Part shown: positions 1-31,990 of the stretch, piece after piece
Layout: each line of letters opens with the position of its first letter
How positions within the stretch are numbered: position 1 is the stretch's first letter
Assembly: GCF_963675165.1 (NCBI RefSeq)
Contig: NC_087385.1
Location: 6,056,912 to 6,120,911 of the forward strand
DNA length: 64,000 nucleotides
From: Halichondria panicea
Taxonomy: Eukaryota; Porifera; Demospongiae; Suberitida; Halichondriidae
Direction of reading: 5' to 3'
The notes under the pieces: generated by a model
Seen by the model: the letters and a program-made list of their open reading frames with translations, nothing else
The model's database searches: none
Told to the model about the DNA's origin: nothing
Translations under genes and position numbers: made by a program

Positions 1-161
1 CAATTTAGCAACAAAACCTCAATCAGACAATAATAAGAGTAGCTACATTGTTTTAATTCAATGGGAAAATCCACACTATACATATGCAAATGCATGTTAG
101 TTCCATCAGGGCTCTCAGCTGAACTGTACATATCATGCGTACACACACACAACAGTCTTAC
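1..161. other. Intron sequence of the left collagen gene
   Basis: No Gly-X-Y exon is readable on the minus strand here. It appears to be intron between the exon ending at 162 and further exons beyond the left edge. A short CA run lies at 141-150. Confidence 0.5.
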
Positions 162-3100
162 CCTCTCTCCGTTTGATCCCACAGATCCGGCAGGTCCTGG
201 GTTTCCTCTATCACCATCAGGTCCATGTGGTCCATCAGCTCCAGCCTCACCCACTGGGCCAGGGGGTCCTTTTCGTCCGGGTGAACCAGGTCGGCCATCG
301 GGGCCAGGGTGGCCAGTCTCTCCAGCAGGTCCAGCTGGGCCACTATCTCCGTTCATTCCTTTAGCTCCAGTGAATCCGATTGATCCAGCAGGGCCATTGG
401 GGCCAAGTAGACCTTGTTCTCCTTGGGAACCCTGGTAAAAAAGAATGATTTCATGCATGTACATCTACATGGGTCTATCTAAGTGTTAGAGTAAATGCTG
501 CAACTGATGCAGTCAAGATATACTCAAGTCTGTGTTAGTCAGAACTATGGATACCCATCACAACGTACTGGCTCTCCACGTTGTCCTTTTGGTCCAGATG
601 CTCCAGGGCCACCGGCTGCACCAGGCTGACCAGAGGCTCCACGAGCTCCAGCCTTACCGGGGGCACCATTGCTTCCCTTCTCTCCCTCGTCTCCTGATGA
701 CCCACTGTCACCCTGTACACAGATGTTTGCTGACATGAAGCATAAACACGTAACACAAAGTAGACATCAGAATCAACAAAATGAATGCTTAAAACTAAAG
801 TCTATAGCCAGCTCACATTTGTACAATACGTGTTTGTCTTACTACAAGTAAGTGTTTTTAACGAGACATTTGAAGATCCTTTTTGTCTGTCAATTTATAA
901 GCAATGATTATAGCTAACTGTGTGTACTTACACCAGGTCCAGCATCTCCCTTCTGTCCTCGTGGTCCCTCTCGACCGTGTGCTCCCTTAGTTCCTCGTGC
1001 TCCAGCAGGGCCGGGGGGTCCAGTGGGGCCCTTGGCTCCTTGATCTCCAATCTCTCCATGTTGACCATGTTGACCTTTGGGGCCTGGGTGACCCTACGAG
1101 TGGAGAATTGGCAATGAGAATGATACAACAATTACAATAGAGACTAGTTTTTTATAAGTATACACATCATACATACATGTACACTGTTACTGTATAGGCA
1201 TCAAACATACATGTAGCCTCGCAAGATATTCAACAATTAGACTCTACTCACAGGTGCTCCATGAGGTCCATCTTGTCCAGGGTCTCCATCGTCACCAGGC
1301 TCTCCATCAGAGCCAGCTGGTCCAGGTCTGCCAGTGGGTCCAACTGGGCCGGGGGGTCCTGTGGGGCCAGGGAAACCAGATGGTCCTTTAGCTCCCTCAG
1401 AACCCTGTGTGTATAAATTATATTGTTGAAGTCTACATAATTGTTTTTATCATAAAATTTGAGCCCGACCACTGATCTAAGCAACCACATTGTAGCATTA
1501 GAGAGCTACTTTTAGTTTTGTTCCTAACTTAAGTAATGGTGTCTTAGAATTAGCTCCAAAAACTTCAGAAACAACATACATGTACATTGTACAGTACACA
1601 TTATTATCTTACATCAGAGCCAGATTGTCCAGGTGGGCCGGGTTGTCCAGGGAAACCAGGGGGTCCACGGCGACCGGGGAATCCACGACCTCCATCCTTG
1701 CCGTCTGTGCCAGCCTTGCCAGGAGGACCGTCTGGACCGTTGTCACCATTGTCACCAGAATCTCCCTGGAGGAGGGGGGAGGGGGGGAGGCGAGGTAAAT
1801 ACAGTAGTAGCAGTAAAATAAAGGGCTAAATAAACTTACCCTCTTACAGTCTCTTACAGTACAGTTGTTTTTTCCCAAATATATCATACACAGTAAATTT
1901 GTGTGGTACATGTACTTACAGAAGCTCCAGATTTTCCAGGTTTGCCATTGAATCCAGGCTCTCCACCGTTGCCCTGTGTGGATTGAGTATAGGTAATGAT
2001 CACTTCACGATCAAAATCACAATTATAGTCAAATTGAAGGGTATCTAAATAACTCTTACAGGTTCTCCCTGAGATCCAGCTGGTCCGTCTTGTCCGGGGC
2101 CACCCCTAAGTCCTTTGGGTCCGTCCACTCCGGGGTGACCAAGGTCTCCGAAGGCTCCACGTGCTCCCTTGTCTCCGAGAGGTCCCTTCTGACCCTTGGC
2201 TCCTTGTTGACCTGGGTGGCCATCATCTCCGTTGAAACCTGGGGCTCCGGTATCTCCTTGACGACCCTACATTGAGTCATATCATTATAATTAAAGAGGG
2301 ATTTTTATTGGCTAGCTGATTAAAGAACGAGAAATGACCTACGTATATGCACCATATTTAAACTACAGCACAGTGCATAATGGCATACAATGTAGCTCTA
2401 GAACATACACTATAAACAATTTTTTACGAAACGGCTGAATCATGCAATAATGAGAAATAGTTATGTATATATACTTACAGTTTCTCCGTGTCGTCCTGGG
2501 GCACCAGGTGCTCCTCTCTTGCCGGGATCTCCCTTCTGTCCAGCTGGTCCTTGTGGGCCTGGGGCACCATCAGTACCCTGGGAGGAGTGTGGGAGTGGAC
2601 AATAGCGTCACACAAATAGGCATAAATACTTTCTGTTCTTATATAGCTACTGACTGCACCAATCTTACATACATGTACATACAGGTACGCACATGAGCTG
2701 TTATAGTTGGCTACACTAATTGTTGCCTGGACTGAACTAGAGTACCAACTCAGACTGAGATCAACTTACATCACCTCCATCCTCTCCCCTGTCTCCAGGT
2801 ACTCCATCTTTGCCAGGTTGTCCAGGGTTGCCTGCCTTGCCCTTAGATCCAGGGTGTCCGTATGGACCCTACAAAACGCACATACTGTAAAAACGGTTGA
2901 ATTTTCGTTGCACATGTCTACAACTTTCGATCCAGACACGCTATACATAGAATACAGTACACCTTTTTTTGACTAGAAGATCACGCTCAAGATATAATTA
3001 TATACAGAAAATTGGTGCAAAACATACGGTGTCTCCAGCTATTCCCTTGGGTCCCTGAGGGCCAGTGGCTCCCCTCTGACCAGCGGGTCCCTCGACTCCA

Positions 3101-5406
3101 GCTGGGCCATATGGTCCAGGATCACCCTACATAATCACAGGAACAAGACTCAAATAATGCCAACATCATAACTATATGTCAGTATCTTGATATCCATTGC
3201 AAACTAGACTTACAGGTTGTCCTTTGTCTCCAGCCTCTCCACGACCTCCAGTAGGTCCAGGGAATCCCTAAAAACAATAATTACAAAATTGCATAAAAAT
3301 AGCCAGCACCAGTGAAATATCATCTATAAATTATAGCAAGTCAATGGTTTATTATTCAGACCAGGAATGGAGTAACAGACTCACAGGTGGTCCAGCATTT
3401 CCAGGTGGGCCCTTGGCTCCATCGTTACCAGTATCTCCAGGCACTCCTTGATCTCCGTTGGGTCCAGGTGGGCCCTGAACTCCTACATTACCAGCAGGTC
3501 CGCCCTGTCCAGGTGCTCCAGGCACACCACTAGGTCCCTATAGGGGGGGGGGGGAACAATTGGCTTAATACATGTATTGGTATTATCAATTATTGGCTTA
3601 TTAATATCAAGATCACTGTGCACTGAGTAAATAGTAGATGCTATACTTCCAAATCTTGCTACGTGTATAAATATTTTACCTTAGGTCCAAAGTCGCCAGC
3701 AGGTCCAACTGCTCCAGGTGGTCCAACATAACCCTGTATATAACAAATACAATAATGTAGTCGTTAGGATAACTATAACATTGTATCGGTGATTCAAATG
3801 GCTCCAGTTTCTCTACTAGTGTTGCTGTATGCAACGACTCACCCTCTCTCCCTTGGGTCCTTTCTTTCCCTGTGGTCCCTTGAGTCCTGGGTATCCCTTG
3901 GGTCCTGGCCAGCCCACTAAACCAGGGACACCCTGAGGGCCCTTCGTTCCCTTAGATCCAGGCACTCCGGGGTGACCAGGGTAACCAATTCCTCCCTAAA
4001 GGCACAATCGATATGAATTATGCAACCTTTCAACAGTAAAATCAAACAGATTTGTGGCATTGTGTGGAATGCACATCTGATGCACTACTCTACAACATTT
4101 GATCGGCTCACTTTTGGTCCTTTGGGGAATCCAATGACACCAGGGGGTCCAGGCACACCTGGAGCACCAGCTGGGCCCACACCTCCGATTGGACCTTGAT
4201 CTCCATCACTACCTTGGTCACCATCAGTACCATCATCTCCCTATGATACACAATAAAATATGGATTGTTGAAAACATGGACTCTGCTGATGTGGTAACAT
4301 TTCACCTGTGGGCCCTAGGAACAAGCCATAAAGCTATGGGGTAGGGTTAGGCTTAGGGTAGGGTTAGCGTGCACTAGCTGGTCAATGTTTACAGTGATCA
4401 TAGGAATTGAAGCAAGCATCCATTGTCACAAGGACAAAGAGTGAGATATATTGAGTCTAGCCTAGGCTTTGTTTAGACTAAGTGTAGCCCACACCCATCC
4501 AGCCATTCTGAGGGCTGCTGTGGACACAGAGGACAGCATACTCAAACAGGATGCACTCACTCATCGTTCTTTTAATTAAGGATGCAAGCAATGCAGTACT
4601 GCATGCCTCTTTACTAAGAATTCTGACTGATGACTCACATTGGGTCCAGGATTTCCAGGTGGGCCAGCGGGACCGGGAAGTGGCTGCACAGGAGGAAGGA
4701 TACACGTTGTAACAATAAGTATTTGTAAATAAAATAAATTGTCATTTGGCACTGAAACTAGATATACGTGCAGTAATAGCACTCTTTTAGGCCTTTTTTT
4801 ATGAGGTGAACTGAGACTTACTCCTCCAACCACATTGCCAGAGTCGCCGGGTGGTCCAGCGGGTCCATTAGGATCTGTAGAGAACACAATAATAAGCATT
4901 CAAAGAGTTGGTCATTTCAGAGTTTTGCAACTTTTTAAAATAGACATTTTGGTTGGTATCCGTTCACTCATCAACGTCACAACTTACCGGTAACAGTCAT
5001 ACAAGATTTGCAATCTTCATTGCCTCCTCCTAACACATAGCCCCCTGCTCCTTGTGTTACGCAACAGTCCTCCGGAGTCGTCATACCCATAAACTGCCCT
5101 CCACACTGGCCATTGCCCTCAGCCTCAGTGAATTCCTCGAAACAGAAGACTTGCTCCTGAGCAGCTGTAGTCAATGTGATGAATACGTAATAGGTGTCAT
5201 CATAGATATTGATAAAAGTGTACATATCTCGTAAATAAGACGGCACTAAGTTGCTCAAAAATACACGACTGTTGAGGATGCTAATACATGGGATAGTCAT
5301 AGGCCTAATGTGTATGACACGCATAACCATGCAGGCACTCACCCGCTTGTGAGGAGATGCAGGCAAGAGCCAGCACACTGATCAACAACTTGACCGACAT
5401 TATCAT
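162..5406 (-). CDS. Fibrillar-type collagen alpha chain with N-terminal six-cysteine TB-like module (3' part outside window)
   Basis: Secreted matrix collagen. Exons, 5' to 3': 5406-5343 (signal peptide), 5164-4988, 4874-4822, 4683-4639, 4240-4112, 3995-3843, 3733-3680, 3537-3385, 3267-3214, 3126-3028, 2868-2770, 2577-2479, 2266-2060, 1973-1920, 1765-1613, 1404-1252, 1093-932, 712-569, 431-162. They join into 774 open codons. Exon 2 has the pattern C-x12-C-x12-CC-x16-C-x2-C, close to the properdin N-terminal TB-like domain. Gly-X-Y begins in exon 3; a one-residue break (GFP-K-GPK) closes exon 5, and the repeat is then unbroken as far as read. Helix exons are mostly multiples of 9 nt (54, 99, 153, 162, 207). 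The start is the first ATG after a 5'-UTR intron; an in-frame ATG follows at 5400. The C-propeptide would lie left of the window, so 'fibrillar' rests on exon pattern and on similarity to the right-hand collagen. Confidence 0.9.
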
Positions 5407-6227: not shown

Positions 6228-8254
6228 CTATTGAGTTTGTTCATCATCAGTAGGTGTGTCCTTATTGGCAGTCTGCTGGTCGCTTGGTTCGTCCCCAGGG
6301 GGTGTACTATCTACTCTACTCTCAGGTGTGGACTCAGGCTCTGTCTCTTCAGGGCCTTCTGCTAAACTGGTGCTGGAGGGAGCTACCTCACCTTCAGTGT
6401 CTCCTTGCTCAGGCTCAGAGGGCTGAATGGAAGCACAGTATTTTAAGCTTTCAGAAAAGCACAAAATTGTTGAAATTGAATCAACATAATTTAAGTCCTG
6501 TTTTAGGTGTGCTAATGATCACTGTCTATGGCCCAGGCCCGCTGCACATAACATACTAATGTTTACATTAATTATTGTGGCACAGTAGTGAATCAGCACA
6601 CTTTAAAGTAAACACTCCAAAACACTAAAATTCTACCTTTATAAAACGATGCGTATGGACACTACACAATTGCACACACCACACTATACCTACCTCTTCT
6701 TGATTTTCTTGTGCACTGGTGCTCTCCACAGGATCTGCTTCAACTGTCACAGGCTCATCTACAACAGGCTCTACATCACCACCCTCTGGCGAGCTGTAGC
6801 AAACATGTGACACATTAGATATAGGGCCTAATTTTACGCATAAATTAATTTACCTTTCAAGTACTGGCTCCTCCACAACAGGCTCCCCCTCACCACTGGT
6901 AACCTCTGGCTCACTGTGTAGCAAACACGGGACATTGGATAGCAGGCCTAAATAAATGTGACCCGGTGTACCTTTCAAGTACTGGCTCCTCCACAACAGA
7001 CTCCCCTTCACCACTAGTAACCTCTGGCTCACTGTGTAGCAAACACGGGACATTAGATAGCAGACCTAAATAAATGTGACCCGGTGTACCTTTCAAGTAC
7101 TGGCTCCTCTACAACAGGCTCCCCTTCACCACTGGTAACCTCTGGCTCACTGTGTGGTAAACACGGGACATTGGATAGCAGACCTAAATAAATGTGACCC
7201 GGTGTACCTTTCAAGTACTGGCTCCTCCACAACAGACTCCCCCTCACCACTGGTAACCTCTGGCTCACTGTTTGGTAAACACGGGACATTGGATAGCAGA
7301 CCTAAATAAATATGACCCGGTGTACCTTTCAAGTACTGGCTCCTCTACAACAGGCTCCCCTTCACCACTGGTAACCTCTGGCTCACTGTGTAGCAAACAC
7401 GGGACATTAGATAGCAGACCTAAATAAATGTGACCCGGTGTACCTTTCAAGTACTGGCTCCTCTACAACAGGCTCCCCCTCACCACTGGTAACCTCTGGC
7501 TCACTGTGTAGCAAAAATGAATAGAGGAATGCTTACATTTATTTCCTGATACCTTTCGGGTGCTGGTTGGTCATCCTTTGCTTTGCTATCATCTTCACTT
7601 TCAGTGACATCATCGTCAGTCGTTCCCTCTTTCATTTCCTGTGCCACACCCACTTCTTCATCACCGTCTTCTGCCCCTTCATCAGCTGTCTCACTGGGTG
7701 GAGCATTCTCCGGGGGACTATCCTCACTTTCATCTTTTGCTGCTTCTTCATATGTGGATGGAACGGCTTCACTCTCAGGAGAAGTTGCTCTACTGGTATC
7801 CGCTGTTAGTTCATCTTCAGTAACACCAGGTTGTGAACCCTCATCAGCACTAGCATTGTTCGTATCTCTTGCATGTGTGTCTTCCTGTGGTCCTTCCACT
7901 AGTTCTACTGGACTGTCTTCAGTAGTAGGCCTTGCATCAGTGGTTGCCTTGTGCAGTGGAGTGTCTAAAATTCCTCCCTCTGGTGCAGAAGGAACAAAGT
8001 GGTTAAAATAATTATTTCTGAATAATGCACATTTACTGTCACATGCTCAGTGATAATAAATAATTATTAGATATATTATACATTTAAATGACTCACTTAC
8101 CATCTCTGACTATCACCTTTCCCTTGAAGTATTCAGCAGCAAAAGCGATGATGTCTTTAGGTTGCTCCCTGAGGACCTCTCGAGCAAGACTCTCCAGGAT
8201 GTACTCAAAACCCAGCGGGACACTCAAACGACTAGATGCATACGAGACAGACAT
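6228..8254 (-). CDS. RIIa-domain protein (CABYR/SPA17-like N-terminus) with an acidic repeat region
   Basis: Exons: 8254-8101, 7979-7553, six 60-nt exons (7503-7444, 7385-7326, 7267-7208, 7149-7090, 7031-6972, 6913-6854), 6793-6694, 6422-6228. Together they give 1236 nt, or 411 aa. Residues about 12-47 form an RIIa dimerisation/docking helix pair (VPLGFEYILESLAREVLREQ, then PKDIIAFAAEYFKGKV), as in PKA RII and the sperm proteins SPA17, ROPN1 and CABYR, which bind AKAP helices. The rest is acidic and low in complexity, rich in E, D, S, T and P. The six 20-residue repeats read (S)EPEVTSGEGE(P/S)VVEEPVLE. All 60-nt exons enter and leave in the same phase, so repeat number can change without a frameshift. 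A role in cilia or sperm flagella is inference from the RIIa relatives. The closest family member cannot be named. Confidence 0.85.
6854..7503 (-). repeat. 118-bp tandem repeat, each unit = one 60-nt exon + one 58-nt intron (6 exon copies)
   Basis: Exon starts fall exactly 118 bp apart at 6854, 6972, 7090, 7208, 7326 and 7444. Each unit has a donor (GAAAG|gtacac) and an acceptor (cag|TGAGCC). The five internal introns are nearly identical. The unit flanking the array on the 3' side has a diverged intron of similar length. Confidence 0.93.
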
Positions 8255-9323: not shown

Positions 9324-12300
9324 ATGATGACTCTGAGACCTCTAATCATCCTCTCAATTGCAGCACTAGCCCTGCTCAGCGTAGCTGGTACGTTGTGGCA
9401 GTATTTATGGTTGCCCTATTGCTGCAGGACCAGTGCATGTGCTATCAATGACGTGTGTACGTGTGTGATTAGGTTAGGGTCAGAGTGATCTTGATTATGA
9501 AACTAGGCAAGTACGTATAAGGCTGTTTATTCATTGCGTTTTATTCTGCATGAACCGCAGCTCTCAGAAAAGTTTGCTTGATATTGTTAGTACTGTTGAT
9601 GGTACATTTGTCAGTAGAGAGTGTGATTTGACTCAACAGGAAGAGACTGCACCACACCTTCTTACAATAAGATTGTTTATTTTACAGTAGACATAATTGT
9701 TGTGTCTTTGCTGTGAATGGGAGTGGTCCACTTTATACATCACAGCTCAGTCTTTGTTGGGACACAATGATCTTTTGTTCTGCTGCCACTGCAACTATGC
9801 ATGTACACGTATCTCTACTGCAGCTGTATGAATGCACGTTTGTACTGCAGAATCAACTGTATACTAAATTTGTTCACTTTCTTCTTTTTCCTTACAGATG
9901 CAGCTAGTGTGCGAGCTAAAAGACAATCTGCAGCGGTAAGTACTCACAAAATTAAATCCTACTTGTTTTTTGCCGGAATGTTTATATGTAGATGTACATA
10001 TCATTTACTTTCAGTAATGTATCTGTGTCTCATTTTTTGTACCCTCCCATCAGATGCCAGGCCCCGCTGGCCCCCCCGGAAGTGATGTAGCAGCCCAACC
10101 TGGACCACCAGGATCTCAAGGCCCACCAGGCTCAAGCGTAAGCAACCACAATAGTTATATTCTCTTCATTCTACGTGCTTTAGTTGTCATACAATTCACG
10201 AGCTCTAAATTTCATCTGACGATGTGTTCTCCTTAACAGGGAGATGATGGTAGTGATGGTAAATCTGGAAATGATGGTCAAGATGGTTCCGGAGGAGAAA
10301 GTGGCCCACCTGGTCCCCCTGGACCCCCCGGACAGCCAGGAGCACCTGCCTATGTACCCATTGTAAGGAAATTGTGTTTAAATCTGCTGTGTGTGGTTAT
10401 GCTGTGTTGCTTTAAAGTAGTACCATTTTGATGCATCTCGCCTTTGTACACTGCAGGGTGGTGGAGATAAAGGACCCATTGTGATTCCAATTGTTGGTGA
10501 CCGTGGTGCCAGAGGACCACCTGGACCTCCAGGACCTTATGTGAGCCAGCAGCACCACTTCAACAACTAGTATAGATTGTATTCACTATAGCACTATAGT
10601 TGTTAGTATAGTTAGCTTCGTTGTTATTATATTAATACTGTGCAGGGAGCACCTGGCTATCCTGGACACCCAGGAGCTAAGGGAATCAGAGGACACAGGG
10701 TAAAATTAATTATTGTATGTACATGTTACGTATTTTGGTTAATGGCGTTCACTTTTTCTTGAGAGCTTGGTTTAACACTGCCAATTTTCACAGGGTATGG
10801 AAGGCACACAAGGAGAGCCTGGAGTTGTTGGAAATGCTGGAAAGACCGTAAGTGGCTTATATGGCTATTAAGTGGTGCTGTAACATGCTTGTCTCCTCGC
10901 TATGCATACAGGGAAGCCCTGGGCCAACTGGACCCACTGGACAGCCAGGAGAGCATGGACCCAGTGGACCCCCAGGACTGCCCGGTATCCCCGGATTCCC
11001 TGGACTCAAGGGAGATGATGTGAGTAGCTATAAATATCTATATTTTAGCCAGTGAGCATTATGGAAGTCTAAAACTTACCTAATTGGTTTTAAATGGTAT
11101 GATTTTTAATGATCTCATGCCCTCTACCTGTACTAGGGTGATGCTGGAGCTGCCGGTGACCGTGGAGAGCAGGGTTCAAAGGGCGTTCCTGGACCTAGCG
11201 GCGAGACTGGACACCCAGGACCTGACGGAAACAGGGTAAATTGTATTTGAAAAATTGAAGCTTAATTGTGTATCTACTTGCACAATGACTCTAATTGGCT
11301 AGCTGCATTACTTACAATGAATGACTTTGTGTGCACTTGCTGCAGGGAGGACAAGGATCTGTGGGAATGAAGGGAGACTCTGGACCAGATGGCAACGATG
11401 TGAGAGACATGTACTCTGTGTGACTATCTCAGAGTCAGCATAATTTTTACTATGCAGCATTATCCATTATGTGCATGTGTACTTTGCTGCAATGGTACTT
11501 TATTTGCACTGTTGTGTACAGGGCCCTGATGGACCCGCTGGCCCAGCTGGCTATGCTGGACCTGGTGGTGAATCTGGAGAAACTGGCCCCGGTGGATCTC
11601 AAGGACGAAAAGGGGCTGCGGTGAGATAATCTGAACTGTGTGTATACTTGTATGTATGCTTCTTCCCTGTTGTACAATTATGCATATACATGTACTGTAT
11701 TTTTCCGGCTGATTTGAAGTTTTGCATGAGAGATTCCTCTCTGTGTGCAATGCATAGTGGACTGAAATTATGCTGTTTTGAATTTGTCTGCAGGGACCCC
11801 GTGGTGCCACTGGCCCAAGAGGAGGACAAGGCGCAGATGGTGATAAGGGCGCTGATGGAGTGCCTGGTCATCCCGGAGCAGGTGGTAATCCAGGTCAGAA
11901 TGGAACTCCAGGCTCAGCTGGGCTTGGTGGTCAGAAGGGGCTCATGGGTAACCAAGGCCGACCTGGTCCCCCTGGTATCCAAGGACAGACTGGAGAAGCT
12001 GGTGCCACTGGACCTAGAGGTCAGTCTGGTGCCAAGGGAGAGCCCGGTATGGATGGAGACAAAGGAGTGAATGGTGCTCAAGGAAAGGCTGTAAGTCCTG
12101 AATTTATTGATAATTATGAGTGGTTTGAATTTGTGGAATTTATAAGGCTTTCATCCTAATTTATCATTACATAGAGCTTTAGTAACTAGCTATTGAATGT
12201 ATCCAGGGATCTACTGGAGAACAAGGACACAAAGGAGCCACTGGTCCCCCTGGAGATCAGGGACAATACGGCAGACCTGGGCCACAGGGCTCTGTTGGAC

Positions 12301-15300
12301 CCAAGGGCCCAAAAGGTCCATCTGGACATAATGGACTCGACGGTAGTGACGGAAAGAACGGAGCCAAAGGTGCCAAGGGAGAGAAGGGTGGTGACGGAGC
12401 ACCTGGAGTGGCTGGACTAGATGTGAGTTAATGTTTACGAGACCTACAGTAAACACAGTGGAGAGCAAAACATTTCGTTTAAAAACTGGTTTGCATTCTA
12501 ATTAAATGGTTAAGTATCTGCTGTATTATACCGTTGCTATAACAACTTGTGTTGCGTTATCAATGGTGCCTCCTCCTGCAGGGTCTTAATGGATATGATG
12601 GTGGCCCTGGGTCATCAGGCCGTCCTGGATCTCGTGGAAAGACTGGAGATCAAGGAGCAGCTGGTAACTCTGGTAGCCCTGGAAGTGCAGGGGCACCCGG
12701 CACACACGGACCTCCTGGACCTAGGGTACGTCATCTCAATGAATTGTGTGGAACTCATGACAATACTCAACATTCTGTGCATGTGTATAGATAGGTACAT
12801 GCATGTGTATAGATAGGTACATGCATGTGTATAGATAGGTACATGCATGTGTATAGATAGGTACATGCATGTGTATAGATAGGTACATGCATGTGTATAG
12901 ATAGGTACATGCATGTGTATAGATAGGTACATGCATGTGTATAGATAGGTACATATGCATGTGTATAGATAGGTACATGCATGTCACTCTAAGACTGTGG
13001 ACGTGCATTATTATGTGTGCTTACATATACAATCATATATACACCCTACTTACAGGGATTGGACGGACCAGCTGGACCAGCTGGAGCTCATGGCGACCTT
13101 GGTATCTCAGTAAGTACAAGATTACATTCTACCTAACAAATAGTTGATCCTGAAATATGTACATTGAAACATCTTATTTGAGCTACATATACAGCTGTGG
13201 TGACGATGCCATTCTCTTATTCTCTTTACAGGGACATAAGGGCTCTCGTGGAGAACATGGCGTCCCAGGGGAGGCTGGTCCCATCGGCCCCCCTGGTCAG
13301 CCAGGAGAGGCTGGATCACCCGGAGCTAAGGGTAACACTGGCATTCCCGGAGGATTTGGAAAGCCCGGACACCCAGGACAGTCTGGACCTGCTGTAAGTT
13401 ACACTCTTTCCCCCTGAGCACACTCTTAATTGCATGTATACTTAGAGATTGAGACAGCATTAAATGCTACCTATAATATATAATACCTAAATTCAAGAAT
13501 CTTCGTATATACACTCTTGCTTTAGAAAAGTTATTTTAGTCCAATCGCTTCATTGACAACACGTATTTGCATGGTACAATCACTCTTAGCATTCAGTTCA
13601 TACATGTACAATGTACGTAGCTCACTGACTCCACTTATTCATACAGGGTCCCACTGGCCCAGCTGGAGATGTTGGCCCTCGTGGAGGACCTGGAGGCGCT
13701 GGACCCGTTGGAGCCAAGGGAGATCAGGGGCCCAAGGGTGGACCCGGAGGATCTGGTGATATTGGAGCTGTTGGAGGCCCAGGACAAACTGTAAGTCAAC
13801 ATTGTTTTGGCAAGTATCCAGCAGACAGTGTATGGAGTGTATTAGACAGTTGAAGTATTATCCAACTGTACACTTAACATTCATTGATCTTGTTTCTCAT
13901 GCTTAGGGTCGTGATGGTCCTGATGGTCCTGATGGTAACCCAGGCCCCCAGGGAGGAGCAGGTACACCTGGACCCAGAGGAGGAATCGGAGCTTCTGGAC
14001 CAGCTGGATCTAGAGTGAGTCATGCAGCACAGTAGAATGCATGGTACTAGCTGTAACAGTTGATTAATGTGCATGTCTGTAACTAGCAAGATGAGCATTG
14101 GTATCAAAACTACCGAATACACAACCCCAGCCAACTAGAGAATATGTCAAGTTTATATTGCACTCTCTCTCCGCCCTCCACACACAGGGTAGAGCAGGAG
14201 ATCGTGGTGCTAAGGGTCCTCGTGGTGGACCTGGAAACGCTGGTCCCAGAGGAGAGGATGGAGAAGCTGGACCTGATGGTATCCCAGGACGACCTGGAGG
14301 CGTTGGACCCCCTGGACTAGCTGGAGATAGGGGATTCCCCGGAGAGCAAGGCTCACATGGAGGAGCTGGAAAGCCTGGAGTAGCTGGAGATAAGGGAGAC
14401 AAGGTGAACACACTTTGCTGGTTGTCTCTCTTTCATTCATTCTATGTTTTTCCACGTTTCCGTATTTACTTGCTTCTGAACCATCTGTATAGGGTTCTGA
14501 TGGCCCACAAGGAGCAAGCGGCCCCGCAGGACCAGCCGGAGGATCTGGACCAGTCGGACCAGTCGGACCTCAAGGAGAGGAGGGACCCGATGGTGTTCCT
14601 GGATCTCAGGGCAATGCTGGCAAACCAGGCAAACCTGGACAGCCCAGCCCCCAAGGCAACAAGGGACCAGCTGGTGCCACTGGCAACGCTGGACTGCCTG
14701 GACGAGCTGGCCCTGAAGGACCCAGCGGTGGAAAGGGACCAGTCGGACCCGACGGCTTCCCAGTAAGTACCTCATGCAACGCATAGTTTTCTTTGGCATA
14801 CATGCAAATATTCATACGTATTCTGTATTTACAGTTTAAAATTAATACGTAACTGTGCTTTTAAGACTATTGTCTGTCTATAGGGAACTAAAGGATCACG
14901 TGGTCCACCCGGACAAGATGGACCCTACGGACCCCGTGGACCTGCTGGACCTAGGGGATTCCCCGGAAAATCAGGAGAACCTGGTGTATCTGTAAGTTTG
15001 TGCCGACCTGTCAAAGCCTAGCAAGTGTGTGTGTGTGTGTGTGTGTGTGTATTTACAAACGTCCATCTCAATGTCTATTACATGGTGAGTTTACAGTGTT
15101 GTTGTCTCACCATGCCAACAGGGCAAGGCTGGAGCTGATGGTGAGAAGGGAAGACCTGGTTCCCAAGGAGAGGCTGGACTGACTGGACAATCCGGGCCTC
15201 AGGGACCCAAGGGAGCACAAGGAAAGAGTGTAAGCACAGCTGCATGTAATACGTGTAGAACATTACATTTGAATGGACTGTATATTGTATAGTTATATTT

Positions 15301-17491
15301 ACCATTTAGCATTTGATTGATTGTGGCATTTTTAAAACATCTTTCAGGGCATCCCTGGCTCAGCTGGAGAGAAGGGAGATATGGGTGATGCTGGACCACA
15401 GGGACAGAAGGGACCATCTGGGCCTCAGGGACTCAAGGGAGCCAAAGGAAGATCTGTAAGTAGTATCTAATATTGCTTGGTAAAGCGTCTCTACACAAAT
15501 GATAATCGCAATTTGATAAAAGTCAACCCCCTCCCCCCCACACACAGGGCCCCAAGGGCTTCGAAGGACCCGCAGGAGACAAAGGAGCACAGGGACTTGA
15601 TGGTGATCCTGGAGCATCTGGACGAAACGGACCCCCTGGTGATGCTGGAGACAAAGGCCGTGCTGGACCCCGTGGGTTCCCCGGTAAACCTGGCCCAGAT
15701 GGAAAGAGAGTGAGTTTCCATTTTTGAGCAAACTGTTAGTTGAGTGCAATTTTGCATTCCTGTGTGTACGCTCCATTGTAAAAAATGCTTTTCGCTCATC
15801 TTCATGGATAGCAATCATCGTGTCCTTGTCCTTGTAGGGTGAGCCTGGTACCACTGGTGGCCCTGGAGAAACTGGCAGAGACGGCCCCACTGGTGCCAAT
15901 GGAGACCCTGGACCCGCTGGACGAACTGGAACACCTGGACAAGCAGTAAGCTCACGTTACAGTAACTTCCTGCATTGTACCCTATTTTACAGTATAGCCA
16001 GCTATATTTAGATTGCTTTGTGTTTAAATACATGTACAGACATACCCGAAGATTGTGTAATTACGAGTGAACTGTTTGCAGGGTGATCCAGGTCCCAAGG
16101 GACCACGTGGAGACAAGGGAGACCAAGGCAAGAAGGGCGACCAAGGACACAAAGGAGACGCTGGATTCGATGGAATCCCTGGAATGGTTGGAGATGTTGG
16201 ACCCAAGGGTAACCAAGGAACACAGGGACCACAAGGACCAGAGGCAAGTGGCCCAACAAATTGAATAGAAAAGCTATCATTCACTTTCTGTACTTGTAGC
16301 TATTCACCTAAAGCTTAGTACATGCACATAAGTGTTTATTCGTGTATATGACTCATCATCTTTGTGCTATCACAGGGTCCCAAAGGAGATACAGGATCAG
16401 TTGGCCCCAAGGCAGCTCTTGGACCAGAGGGAGAGAAAGGATCTGCTGGACCACCTGGTCCTGATGGAGGTGATGGCCCCAAGGGATACCTTGGACCACC
16501 CGGACCTCCCGGACCTCCTGGAGATGGTACTAAGGGTCCAATCTTCTACAGAGGCAGGGATGACACCTACAACCTTCAGAAGATCGAAAAGGTGGGCTGA
16601 TTGTTTGTGTGTTGATACTGCTAGTACGTCGATCATGTGTACTTAAAATTTTGGCTGCATACAAATACGTAGTACGTACAGTACATTACATTCCATGCAT
16701 CCTGCAGCAATTCCTCTACGTGGAGCTTACTTCAATGGCCAAGGAGCTTCAGGAGCTCTCTTCTCTCAAACCAGCTCGTAGCTGCAGGGACGTTCAACTG
16801 GAGAAACCCGATGTTTCCAGCGGTACATTCACCGTGGACCCCAACGTGGGCTCATCTTTGGACTCTGTGAAGGCATACTGTCACTTTGAGGGAGAGCAAG
16901 CCACTACCTGTGTGCAGAACTCTACCACTTTCTCTCAAATCAACCACCTTCATCTGCTCCACACCCGGGCCTCTCAGACTATCCAGCTGCCCTGCAGCCT
17001 CAAGGGACCCCTCAGGTGTGTGTATGTGTGTGTGGAGAGTGGGCGGATGGGGCGCATTCTTATGTGTGTTTATTCAGCTGATATTTTATGGTTCACCCAA
17101 TGTTTTATTGCTCCTACAGCCTCACTCCTTTCGATAGTGATAACAGTGTTGATGTATCTTTCTCAAAGAAGGGAAACCTTGATGTTGTCATGTCCAAATG
17201 CAATTCAGTGAGTTTATGAGCGCACACTCTTCTTGACATGCACACCTTTCATCCCCTATATGTGTACATGTTATTGCTTGAACACCTTTACCCGGCATAC
17301 TAGTCCTCCCCTCGTCTCCACACCCCCCACTTCACACACACTTCACACACACACACACACGCACACAGTTCACGATGATGCGAGAAGTGACGTTCAAGAC
17401 TGAGAACAGTATGGAGCAGTTGGTGCCATTCACCGAGGCTATCCGATACAACTACCAGGACTACCACTTCAAGGAGACCTGCTTCTACTGA
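9324..17491 (+). CDS. Fibrillar collagen alpha chain, complete
   Basis: Thirty coding exons: 9324-9387, 9898-9935, 10054-10137, 10240-10362, 10457-10540, 10646-10699, 10794-10847, 10912-11019, 11137-11235, 11346-11399, 11522-11620, 11794-12090, 12207-12422, 12582-12725, 13056-13109, 13232-13393, 13647-13790, 13907-14014, 14188-14403, 14493-14762, 14884-14991, 15122-15229, 15348-15455, 15548-15709, 15838-15945, 16082-16243, 16376-16591, 16708-17015, 17120-17207, 17369-17491. The sum is 3963 nt, or 1320 aa. A signal peptide is followed by a furin-like RAKR site at residues 29-32, a short Gly-X-Y minor helix and a break ([16 protein letters not shown]). A helix of about 1010 residues runs from Gly116 to about 1127, close to the 1014 of vertebrate fibrillar chains. 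The COLFI C-propeptide has six cysteines, an NST glycosylation site and ends ETCFY. There is no TB or VWC module. Two helix glycines are replaced (Ser786, Ala1089). The intron after 16243 starts with GC. Confidence 0.95.
12781..12980. repeat. 22-bp minisatellite (about 9 copies) in a collagen intron
   Basis: The unit GTGTATAGATAGGTACATGC+AT is repeated almost perfectly within the intron 12726-13055. One copy carries a 2-bp insertion (ACATATGCAT). Confidence 0.95.
15027..15050. repeat. (GT)n microsatellite in a collagen intron
   Basis: An uninterrupted run of about 12 GT units in the intron between 14991 and 15122. Confidence 0.9.
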
Positions 17492-21318: not shown

Positions 21319-22080
21319 GTAGATCGTAGAAGCAAACCGCGGTAGCTTATCGAAACTATGTCGAAACAGACAATCAAGGAGGTGGGGCTCGCCTGTGCAC
21401 AGAACATTGCGTTCTGTATGCGCATGCGTAGATCTGGAATCGACCTATCACGGTGAGAAAGAAGCACACGGACTGGTCAGGCAAATCCAATGGAGTCCTC
21501 TCATCACTAAGCCAACACAAACCAAGCAACTGGTAAGTTGATTTGTTGTGTACTTATTTTTCATATGTAGCAACTTTTGTGCTATAATATTGTATGTATG
21601 GTTGGTCATTTATGCCGTTTAGTAGACCTACATTACACTCTGCATTCTACATTCCTCCTTTCTCCAACTATGCAAAGTTGTATTTATTGCAGAAAAATGT
21701 TCAACCAAAATAACAGCAGAGACTGCTGCATGGAGCTATGATCGACTGCACACTGTTACAGCGTTCACATTGCCTTGTCGTTGCTGTTGCCATTAAGGTT
21801 GCCGTTGCGGAAGCACTCAAGTGAGTAAGCACAATGATATCATATCTTCTTATAGAGCTATGTTTAATACACTCTGCATTATAATTAATGCATAAAGTAA
21901 TAAGATGTACATACGAAAGTAGCAGTTTTAGAAACTGACAATCCTTTTTCGTTCCATGCAGTCCTTAACTCTGCAAATGCATGGACAAGATCTCTGATCT
22001 CTGAGACCTGAAGAGATCCAGCCATTTAAATTAAAGGTTGGCTCATGCAGCTGTGATAAGTAGGTAGGTCTTATGGTGGT
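21319..22080 (+). ncRNA. Intergenic region with a possible short spliced non-coding transcript
   Basis: Upstream of SECISBP2 there is a plus-strand donor (CAACTG|gtaagt) at 21532/21533, an acceptor (attgcag) near 21691, a second donor (TCAA|gtgagt) near 21819 and an acceptor (catgcag) near 21960. The intervening exons hold no long ORF. This could be a divergent non-coding RNA or chance splice motifs. Confidence 0.2.
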
Positions 22081-22297
22081 CTGTGGGTTCTCCTAGAGTA
22101 AGCAGATTAAATTACTGTCTAATCTGTGGGTTCTCCTAGAGTAAGCAGATTAAATTACTGTCTAATCTGTGGGTTCTCCTCGAGTAAGCAGATTAAATTA
22201 CTGTCTAATCTGTGGGTTCTCCTAGAGTAAGCAGATTAAATTACTGTCTAATCTGTGGGTTCTCCTCGAGTAAGCAGATTAAATTACTGTCTAAAAG
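22081..22297. repeat. 43-bp minisatellite, 5 copies
   Basis: The unit starts CTGTGGGTTCTCCTAGAGTA and ends ATTACTGTCTAAT. Copies differ mainly at one A/C position (CTAGAG versus CTCGAG), which alternates between copies. Confidence 0.95.
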
Positions 22298-28205: not shown

Positions 28206-28505
28206 GATTTGGCATTCAGATTAGTAAAAGAACACAGCGAATTGCAAGCTGTTATAATTTATACCAATTCAATCTCGCATGTACTATAAGAACTTCTCAT
28301 TGGTCCAATTTATCTTCTTGTACTGGAGTAAATATTCATTTGATGAGTGACTTGTAGTTACATTTATTTTATTAATTTGCACATGGCTTGTTTGGGATTT
28401 TTTTCCTTTGGGGGTTCATGGGACAATCTCATTGTGGGTGCCGATTGCACACAGAACACGGCATAGCGTCATGCCGCCTAAGTCTGCACAGTACACACAT
28501 ACCTG

Positions 28506-28770
28506 GTGCAGGAGTGGAGGGTTTTAGAGACTGGAGATAGTCAATAACTCCAGCCTTTGTGCAGGAGTGGAGGGTTTCAGAGACTGGAGATAGTCAATGA
28601 CTCAAGCCTCTGTGCAGGAGTGGAGGGTTTTAGAGACTGGAGATAGTCAATAACTCCAGCCTTTGTGCAGGAGTGGAGGGTTTCAGAGACTGGAGATAGT
28701 CAATGACTCAAGCCTCTGTGCAGGAGTGGAGGGTTTCAGAGACTAGAGATAGTCAACAACTCCAGCCTCT
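28506..28770. repeat. 53-bp minisatellite, 5 copies
   Basis: The unit begins GTGCAGGAGTGGAGGGTTT and ends CAATAACTCCAGCC. Copies start at 28506, 28559, 28612, 28665 and 28718. It is related to the 62-bp array at 31690-31960. The minus strand of each unit reads DYLQSLKPSTPAP. Confidence 0.92.
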
Positions 28771-29060
28771 GTGGGCGGCCTTCCTGCTAGTGAAGGCAGA
28801 CAGTGTTAATCTGCTTAGTACTTTTACAGTTCTTGATAGGAGTACACACATACCTGGTTCAGGAGTGGAGGGGACTAGAGATAGTCAACGACTCCAGCCT
28901 CTGTGCAGGAGTGGAGGGTTTCAGAGACTAGAGATAGTCAACAACTCCAGCCTCTGTGGGCGGCCTTCCTGCTAGTGAAGGCAGACAGTGTTAATCTGCT
29001 TAGTACTTTTACAGTTCTTGATAGGAGTACACACATACCTGGTTCAGGAGTGGAGGGTTT
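28760..29060. repeat. Direct duplication of about 130 bp derived from the minisatellite
   Basis: The block CTCTGTGGGCGGCCTTCCTG through ACACATACCTGGTTCAGGAG occurs at about 28765-28866 and 28949-29048, each next to minisatellite units. Confidence 0.85.
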
Positions 29061-31619: not shown

Positions 31620-31990
31620 TGTACATCACCAGGATTGCACACAGAACACGGCATAGCGTCATGCAGCATAAGTCTGCACAGTACACACATACCTGGTGCA
31701 GGAGTGGAGGGTTTCAGAGATTGGAGATAGTCAATAACTCCAGTACGCACATACCTGGTGCAGGAGTGGAGGGTTTCAGAGATTGGAGATAGTCAATAAC
31801 TCCAGTACGCACATACCTGGTGCAGGAGTGGAGGGTTTCAGAGATTGGAGATAGTCAATAACTCCAGTACGCACATACTTGGTTCAGGAGTGGAAGGTAG
31901 AGGCTTGATATAGTCAACAACTCCAGTACACACGTACTTGGTGCAGGAGTGGAGGGTTTCCGGAGATAGTCAACAACATCAGAATAAGAA
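31620..31990. repeat. 62-bp minisatellite (about 4-5 copies), related to the array at 28506
   Basis: The unit GTGCAGGAGTGGAGGGTTTC through ACGCACATACCTG begins at about 31697, 31759 and 31821, with diverged copies after. The flank at 31635-31700 repeats the flank at 28450-28510. The minus strand reads GVIDYLQSLKPSTPAP, like the end of the exon at 31938-32150, so the array probably grew from that exon end. Confidence 0.9.

Follow-up and report, generated by a model that had tools for sequence, protein, structure and literature searches.

The minus strand of the window, by which we mean the 64,000-nt stretch of Halichondria panicea DNA analyzed here (C9:6056912-6120911), contains a tandem array with an exact period of 118 bp, and this array probably consists of complete exon-plus-intron units of a real SPA17-like gene, duplicated in tandem, in which each of six 60-nt exons would be spliced separately. 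A repeat of minisatellite size would thus bear its own splice sites, and its instability would become clean changes of protein length.

Results

Organization of the array

The 650 nt from 7503 to 6854 on the minus strand are made up of six segments of 60 nt and, between them, five of 58 nt, free of indels, and TRF over 6851-7515 reported a period of 118, 5.6 copies, 95% matches, 0% indels, and a score of 1204. The first-pass annotation had placed six 60-nt exons and five nearly identical 58-nt introns at 6854..7503, with a 118-bp period, and the tiling of segments reproduced that layout to the base. The predicted array exons E1 (7444..7503, phase 2 in and out), E2 (7326..7385), E3 (7208..7267), E4 (7090..7149), E5 (6972..7031), and E6 (6854..6913) vary at 4 of 60 sites, and E2 is identical to E4. 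The predicted introns I1 (7386..7443), I2 (7268..7325), I3 (7150..7207), I4 (7032..7089), and I5 (6914..6971), each of 58 nt, vary at 6 of 58 sites, and I1 is identical to I4, which agrees with the near-identity noted for them earlier. No two of the five whole exon-intron units are identical. Each 60-nt exon encodes the 20-residue repeat SEPEVTSGEGE[P/S]VVEEPVLE, with 7 acidic and 0 basic residues, where E3 and E5 carry the Pro to Ser variant. When the 118-bp unit was used as a query against the genome (131.46 Mb in 39 contigs, of which C1 to C17 are 5.7 to 18.1 Mb in length), at least six matches were obtained at E ≤ 0.001, all of them within the array, and with a protein query composed of the repeat and its flank, every one of at least six matches at E ≤ 1 fell at the array locus.

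Gene model and reading frame

An inferred ten-exon model on the minus strand gives an open frame of 411 residues up to the stop codon, with GT-AG at all inferred introns. Exon 1 (8101..8254) supplies the ATG start and the RIIa (docking/dimerization) domain, and is followed by a putative GT-AG intron of 121 nt (7980..8100), whose retention would bring a stop 3 codons in. Exon 2 (7553..7979), recognized by its open frame, is an acidic, low-complexity coding exon that ends in phase 2, and its tail, CCAGCACCCGAAAG, aligns with the end of an array exon. Between exon 2 and the array lies intron 0 (7504..7552, 49 nt), the last 12 nt of which match array introns I1, I4, and I5 in the alignment. On the other side of the array, intron 6 (6794..6853, 60 nt) aligns with the array introns as their diverged homologue, and its donor (GTAAAT) is stronger than theirs. 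The start of exon E7 (6694..6793, 100 nt) aligns as a diverged version of the repeat of 20 residues. The last intron (6423..6693, 271 nt) and exon E8 with the stop codon (6228..6422) complete the model. The predicted tail beyond the RIIa domain is strongly acidic, with 116 Asp or Glu residues versus 10 Lys or Arg in 359 residues.

Retention of any one of the nine introns of the model leads to an early stop, while all 28 donor-acceptor joins that are possible from exon 2 to E7 across the array preserve the frame. The exon-intron reading of the array in this predicted gene is likely, and the earlier proposals that the repeat unit is a complete exon plus a complete intron, and that units could be lost or exons skipped free of frameshift, are supported, the former as an inferred gene model with an open 411-residue frame and GT-AG borders and the latter by the frame being kept in 28 of 28 joins.

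RIIa domain and relation to SPA17

The suggestion in the first-pass annotation of a probable RIIa protein was borne out by exon 1, which scored 34.8 bits against Pfam PF02197 (cut-off, 22.4 bits) and 38.8 bits in a genome-wide RIIa profile search. Comparison with PDB sequences gave zebrafish Sp17 at E = 1.1e-11 and Sp17 at 7.4e-9, followed by PKA-RII alpha at 1.1e-5 at best and ropporin-1-like at 0.83, and so among the PDB sequences, to which the comparison was confined, the RIIa domain is nearer to that of Sp17 than to that of PKA-RII. At E ≤ 10, RIIa had seven matches in the genome, four of them above the cut-off: the SPA17-like gene, a PKA-RII gene on C13, a PKA-RI-like gene on C17, and a fourth locus on C14, the loci other than the SPA17-like gene being named by eye. 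The PKA-RII-like gene (L007, around C13:1012753) has eight introns, the shortest of 53 nt and the longest of 279 nt, and adjoins a gene that ends in an Arg-Gly-rich stretch. SPA17 carries a C-terminal IQ (calmodulin-binding) motif, and no IQ motif was found with one pattern in the 411-residue predicted protein; we therefore class the protein as SPA17-like and not as a SPA17 orthologue. Judged by its domain, the gene is predicted to encode a SPA17-like docking-and-dimerization protein of the R2D2 class, for which AKAP docking is predicted. In the parts of PMC8339350 used here, SPA17 is described as conserved across metazoan phyla, and its binding to AKAP18 is weak when alone (9.6 μM) and reaches 82 nM together with ROPN1L.

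Evidence for coding beyond chance

The phase-neutral GT-AG split of the unit had been offered as evidence for the exon-intron structure. The split is indeed present, but its strength is less than was claimed: the consensus unit has 23 phase-neutral GT-AG splits versus a mean of 25.7 in dinucleotide shuffles, and a stricter split test was passed by 21% of 2000 shuffles, a comparison that slightly favors the shuffles because observed splits were required in five copies and shuffled ones in one sequence. By itself, the phase-neutral split into exon and intron is no evidence beyond chance, and the case rests instead on the frame, the composition, the synonymous bias, and the homologous flanks. That all five introns carry GT and AG also says little, because the copies are nearly identical.

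In the frame required by the gene model, the array exon scores 18.3 bits for the residue composition of the non-array exons of the gene, and at least this score was reached by 0.06% of 20,000 random 60-mers from the window, which is a single-frame figure before correction for six frames. The remaining sense frames of the array exon score -16.5 and -14.3 bits, its antisense frames -30.7, 0.7, and -13.3 bits, and intron I1, in its three frames, from -20 to -31 bits. Three of the four variable exon sites are synonymous, where 14 of the 60 sites are synonymous (Fisher p = 0.036). Downstream of the array, the alignment identifies intron 6 and E7 as diverged homologues of the unit in which the splice junction is preserved.

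Splice-site strength

Splice sites were scored against a reference set of 46 introns, comprising 34 collagen introns from the window located by Gly-X-Y periodicity, 8 from the PKA-RII gene on L007 placed by eye, and 4 from the SPA17-like gene; the set is biased because 34 of its 46 introns are from collagen genes. Periodicity had placed 38 collagen introns, 4 of which were dropped as mis-placed before scoring, and the spliced translation across the eight PKA-RII introns is open. A genome search with kinesin exons gave at least 128 matches, and no kinesin introns were included in the reference set. The array donor, AAG/GTACAC, scores 3.1 bits and is exceeded by 43 of the 46 reference introns. 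The acceptors of I1, I4, and I5 are outscored by 42 of 46, that of I2, the weakest, by 44, and that of I3 by 40. The donor of intron 0, upstream of the array, is nearly as weak (3.3 bits), and that of intron 6, after the array, reaches 8.7 bits, intron 6 itself being within the reference set. A cryptic donor, GTG/GTGAGG (4.5 bits), occurs in E1, E3, and E6. In E1 and E3 it scores higher than the array donor, while the own donor of E6 is stronger than its cryptic one. Use of this cryptic donor would, by arithmetic, shift the frame, and in E2, E4, and E5 its score falls from 4.5 to 1.4 bits through a G/A difference at position 25 of the exon. With a smaller matrix built from 12 introns, the array donor scores 4.6 bits, lower than any of the 12 references (8.4-11.0), and E5 contains another cryptic donor that also exceeds it, at 6.5 bits.

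The shortest reference intron is 49 nt, and 4 of the 46 do not exceed 60 nt, two from the SPA17-like gene and two from the PKA-RII gene (53 and 60 nt, placed by eye); the 58-nt introns are thus short yet within range. At the position where I1, I4, and intron 6 have CTAAT, introns I2, I3, and I5 have CCAAT, and this motif may be the branch site. A putative hairpin, in which GTACACCGGG pairs with CCCGTGTTT and would bring donor and acceptor close to each other, can be drawn in the array introns at 7386-7443, 7150-7207, and 7268-7325 (minus strand). With z of -1.4 to -1.9 in the three introns, the hairpin was not used as support; two whole 118-nt stretches fold no better than shuffles (z of 0.8 and 2.3), and the GGG/CCC stem is absent from introns 0 and 6.

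Evolution of the array

Exons and introns of the array have diverged alike (4 of 60 versus 6 of 58 variable sites, Fisher p = 0.53), and exon and intron were therefore apparently copied together. The best single tree for the five exon-intron units takes 13 changes versus a minimum of 10; introns alone fit a single tree perfectly, and exons alone take 5 changes versus 4. A four-gamete pattern is found at nine pairs among the 10 variable sites. E2 and E4 are identical yet are followed by different introns, and I1 and I4 are identical yet are followed by different exons. Such conflict between haplotypes would be expected from exchange between copies, although the ten sites that carry it are few and it depends in part on a G/A site at which the same mutation could have happened on two occasions. 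The exact steps of 118 bp would be most simply explained by unequal exchange in register, with slippage or conversion also possible.

Other repeats and neighboring genes

Other arrays were surveyed in 254 kb, composed of the window and 19 segments, each of 10 kb, sampled across 17 contigs (190 kb outside the window). TRF returned 155 rows, 43 of which had a period of at least 30 and at least 1.9 copies; the arrays of L015, L029, and L032 were translated, those of the window were inspected by eye, and the remaining rows were judged from the TRF table. One further exon-intron array was recognized, at 276-1327 of L032, with a period of 412 and 2.5 copies. Its 412-bp unit encodes a WW domain (PF00397, 49.6 bits) followed by a putative intron; one possible length of the WW exon is 99 nt, its true donor being unsure. 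Five WW exons are found in L040 (C1:2997734-3001271, about 3.5 kb), two further units match the whole 412-bp query at 98% and 95%, and partial relatives lie on C1 and C7. No rate of exon-intron arrays can be derived from these results because there are two cases and one of them was the starting point.

Within the window, the arrays at 22080-22294, 28506-29057, and 31679-31960 were rejected as exon-intron units, their 43-, 53-, and 62-bp units being too short for both an exon and an intron of the lengths found in the SPA17-like array. At 28688-29057 the 185-bp unit offers enough room, but a candidate exon picked by eye had stops. Read-through frames in these arrays are closed, except for one frame of 28860-28958. 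The minus-strand regions 28500-29057 and 31679-31960, 3 kb apart, hold related repeats of 53, 62, and 185 bp with a common CCCTCCACTCCTG core.

Collagen genes stand on both sides of the SPA17-like gene, at about 160-4870 (minus strand) and 10500-17200 (plus strand). Many of their exons, as delimited by Gly-X-Y periodicity, measure 54, 99, 108, or 144-162 nt and some are longer; at the right-hand end there is a COLFI domain. Pfam domains detected in the window include fibrillar collagen C-terminal, Ets, filamin, and cation-ATPase domains, which together with the SPA17-type domain indicate an animal genome, and an Rfam scan of the window at gathering scores returned nothing. A profile search with PF05018, which we take to be a cilium family, gave matches to which no weight was attached.

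Discussion

The structure of the array can be explained if one phase-2 exon and its adjoining short intron were duplicated in tandem to form the six near-identical copies, presumably by unequal exchange in register. Each 60-nt exon would be spliced on its own and would add one acidic 20-residue unit, and the units would extend a long negative tail, probably disordered, behind the domain for dimerization and AKAP docking. Because exon and intron travel together, the gain or loss of a unit in register would change the protein by 20 residues and leave the frame untouched, and it is reasonable to propose that the array may mutate in the manner of a minisatellite and that its exons may be skipped.

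The splice-site scores, however, also allow other readings. Array splice sites that are weak relative to the 46 reference introns, the stronger donor of intron 6, the occurrence of CCAAT in three of the five array introns in place of the CTAAT seen in I1, I4, and intron 6, and the 28 joins that all remain in frame are what might be expected if the exons were facultative cassettes, such that any donor from exon 2 to E6 could pair with any later acceptor up to E7 and one allele would give rise to a protein ladder that climbs from 291 to 411 residues, each step adding 20. We regard such free pairing as unlikely, given that the donor of intron 0, which lies outside the array, is about as weak, and that introns this short are usually recognized as intron units, in which case nearest-neighbor pairing would be dominant. 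The same weak donor and acceptors, together with the cryptic donors, could instead mean that the array is non-coding, that is, a minisatellite derived from an old exon, lying within a single long intron that separates exon 2 from E7 and never or rarely included in the transcript. The frame is kept when all six exons are skipped, and phase-neutral splits come cheaply, but the coding composition in the needed frame and the synonymous bias argue against a non-coding array, which we consider less likely again than the cassettes. An error of copy number in the assembly, where identical units might have been collapsed or expanded, is conceivable, since identity between copies reaches 100% for some exons and for some introns; yet the five whole exon-intron units are all distinct and 650 bp is a short span for long reads, and such an error is very improbable.

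Separately spliced exon-intron units in a SPA17-like gene thus seem to us the probable structure. A far more speculative extension, which has only a slim chance of being correct, is that the array acts as a two-layer length dial in a docking protein of the cilium or sperm type, where germline unequal exchange would set the number of units and weak, interchangeable splice sites would produce a frame-safe ladder of 291-411 residues, while the synonymous and intronic sites at which the copies differ would tune which exons are skipped. No matter whether protein length has any such role, if transcripts confirm the gene model, the 650-bp array would be small enough for genotyping in single reads and for counting of exons in full-length cDNA, and exchange between copies and competition for splice sites among near-identical exons would become directly measurable. 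The WW-domain array encountered in the 190-kb sample hints that the process may recur in the same genome.

Among the matches listed in the open-licence literature, which was covered through titles and the openings of abstracts, no comparable array in a SPA17-like gene was found, and a search of prokaryote genome contigs for relatives gave 372 pattern matches and 0 confirmed. Schistosome micro-exons are symmetric and non-identical to each other. The genes that contain them resemble the SPA17-like gene in their series of short exons, but the introns are long, up to 5 kbp, in contrast with the 58 nt seen here (PMC10526429, in the part consulted). Earthworm metallothionein, in which exon duplications are described as absent from the transcript in the section of PMC12783039 that concerns them, provides no close parallel. 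In human segmental duplications, internal tandem repeats with units of 9-228 bp in coding sequence alter exons or introns (PMC2812944); as far as that account goes, the repeats modify an exon or an intron or create an intron, whereas the unit of the SPA17-like array would be a whole exon plus a whole intron.

Tandem exon-intron units with homogenized introns are already known, among them those of human LPA and of spider silk genes. In human LPA, the kringle IV type 2 repeat is a 5.5 kb unit with two exons (160 and 182 bp), present in 1 to more than 40 copies in people as an established polymorphism (PMC4378929). As in the SPA17-like array, each LPA repeat contains its exons and introns in full and contributes a single module to the protein, but according to the portion of the paper used here the LPA unit is a 5.5-kb, two-exon kringle repeat and is polymorphic, while the sponge array was read in one assembly. 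In the excerpts of PMC9779670 available for comparison, Argiope MaSp2 and flagelliform spidroin are made of repetitive exon-intron pairs whose introns are homogenized within the gene, unequal crossing over aided by the repeated introns is the suggested cause, and alternative splicing would be likely to alter protein length alone; Tenascin-X and Coccidioides SOWgp are cited there as further genes in which introns are homogenized with the repeated coding units. The likeness to spider silk lies in the repeated exon-intron pairs and homogenized introns, and no homology is claimed. Silk proteins, as presented in that source, are nearly all repeat, whereas the SPA17-like array comprises 118-bp units, each with an intron of 58 nt, in the tail region of a docking protein, and it is this tiny unit that is distinctive here.
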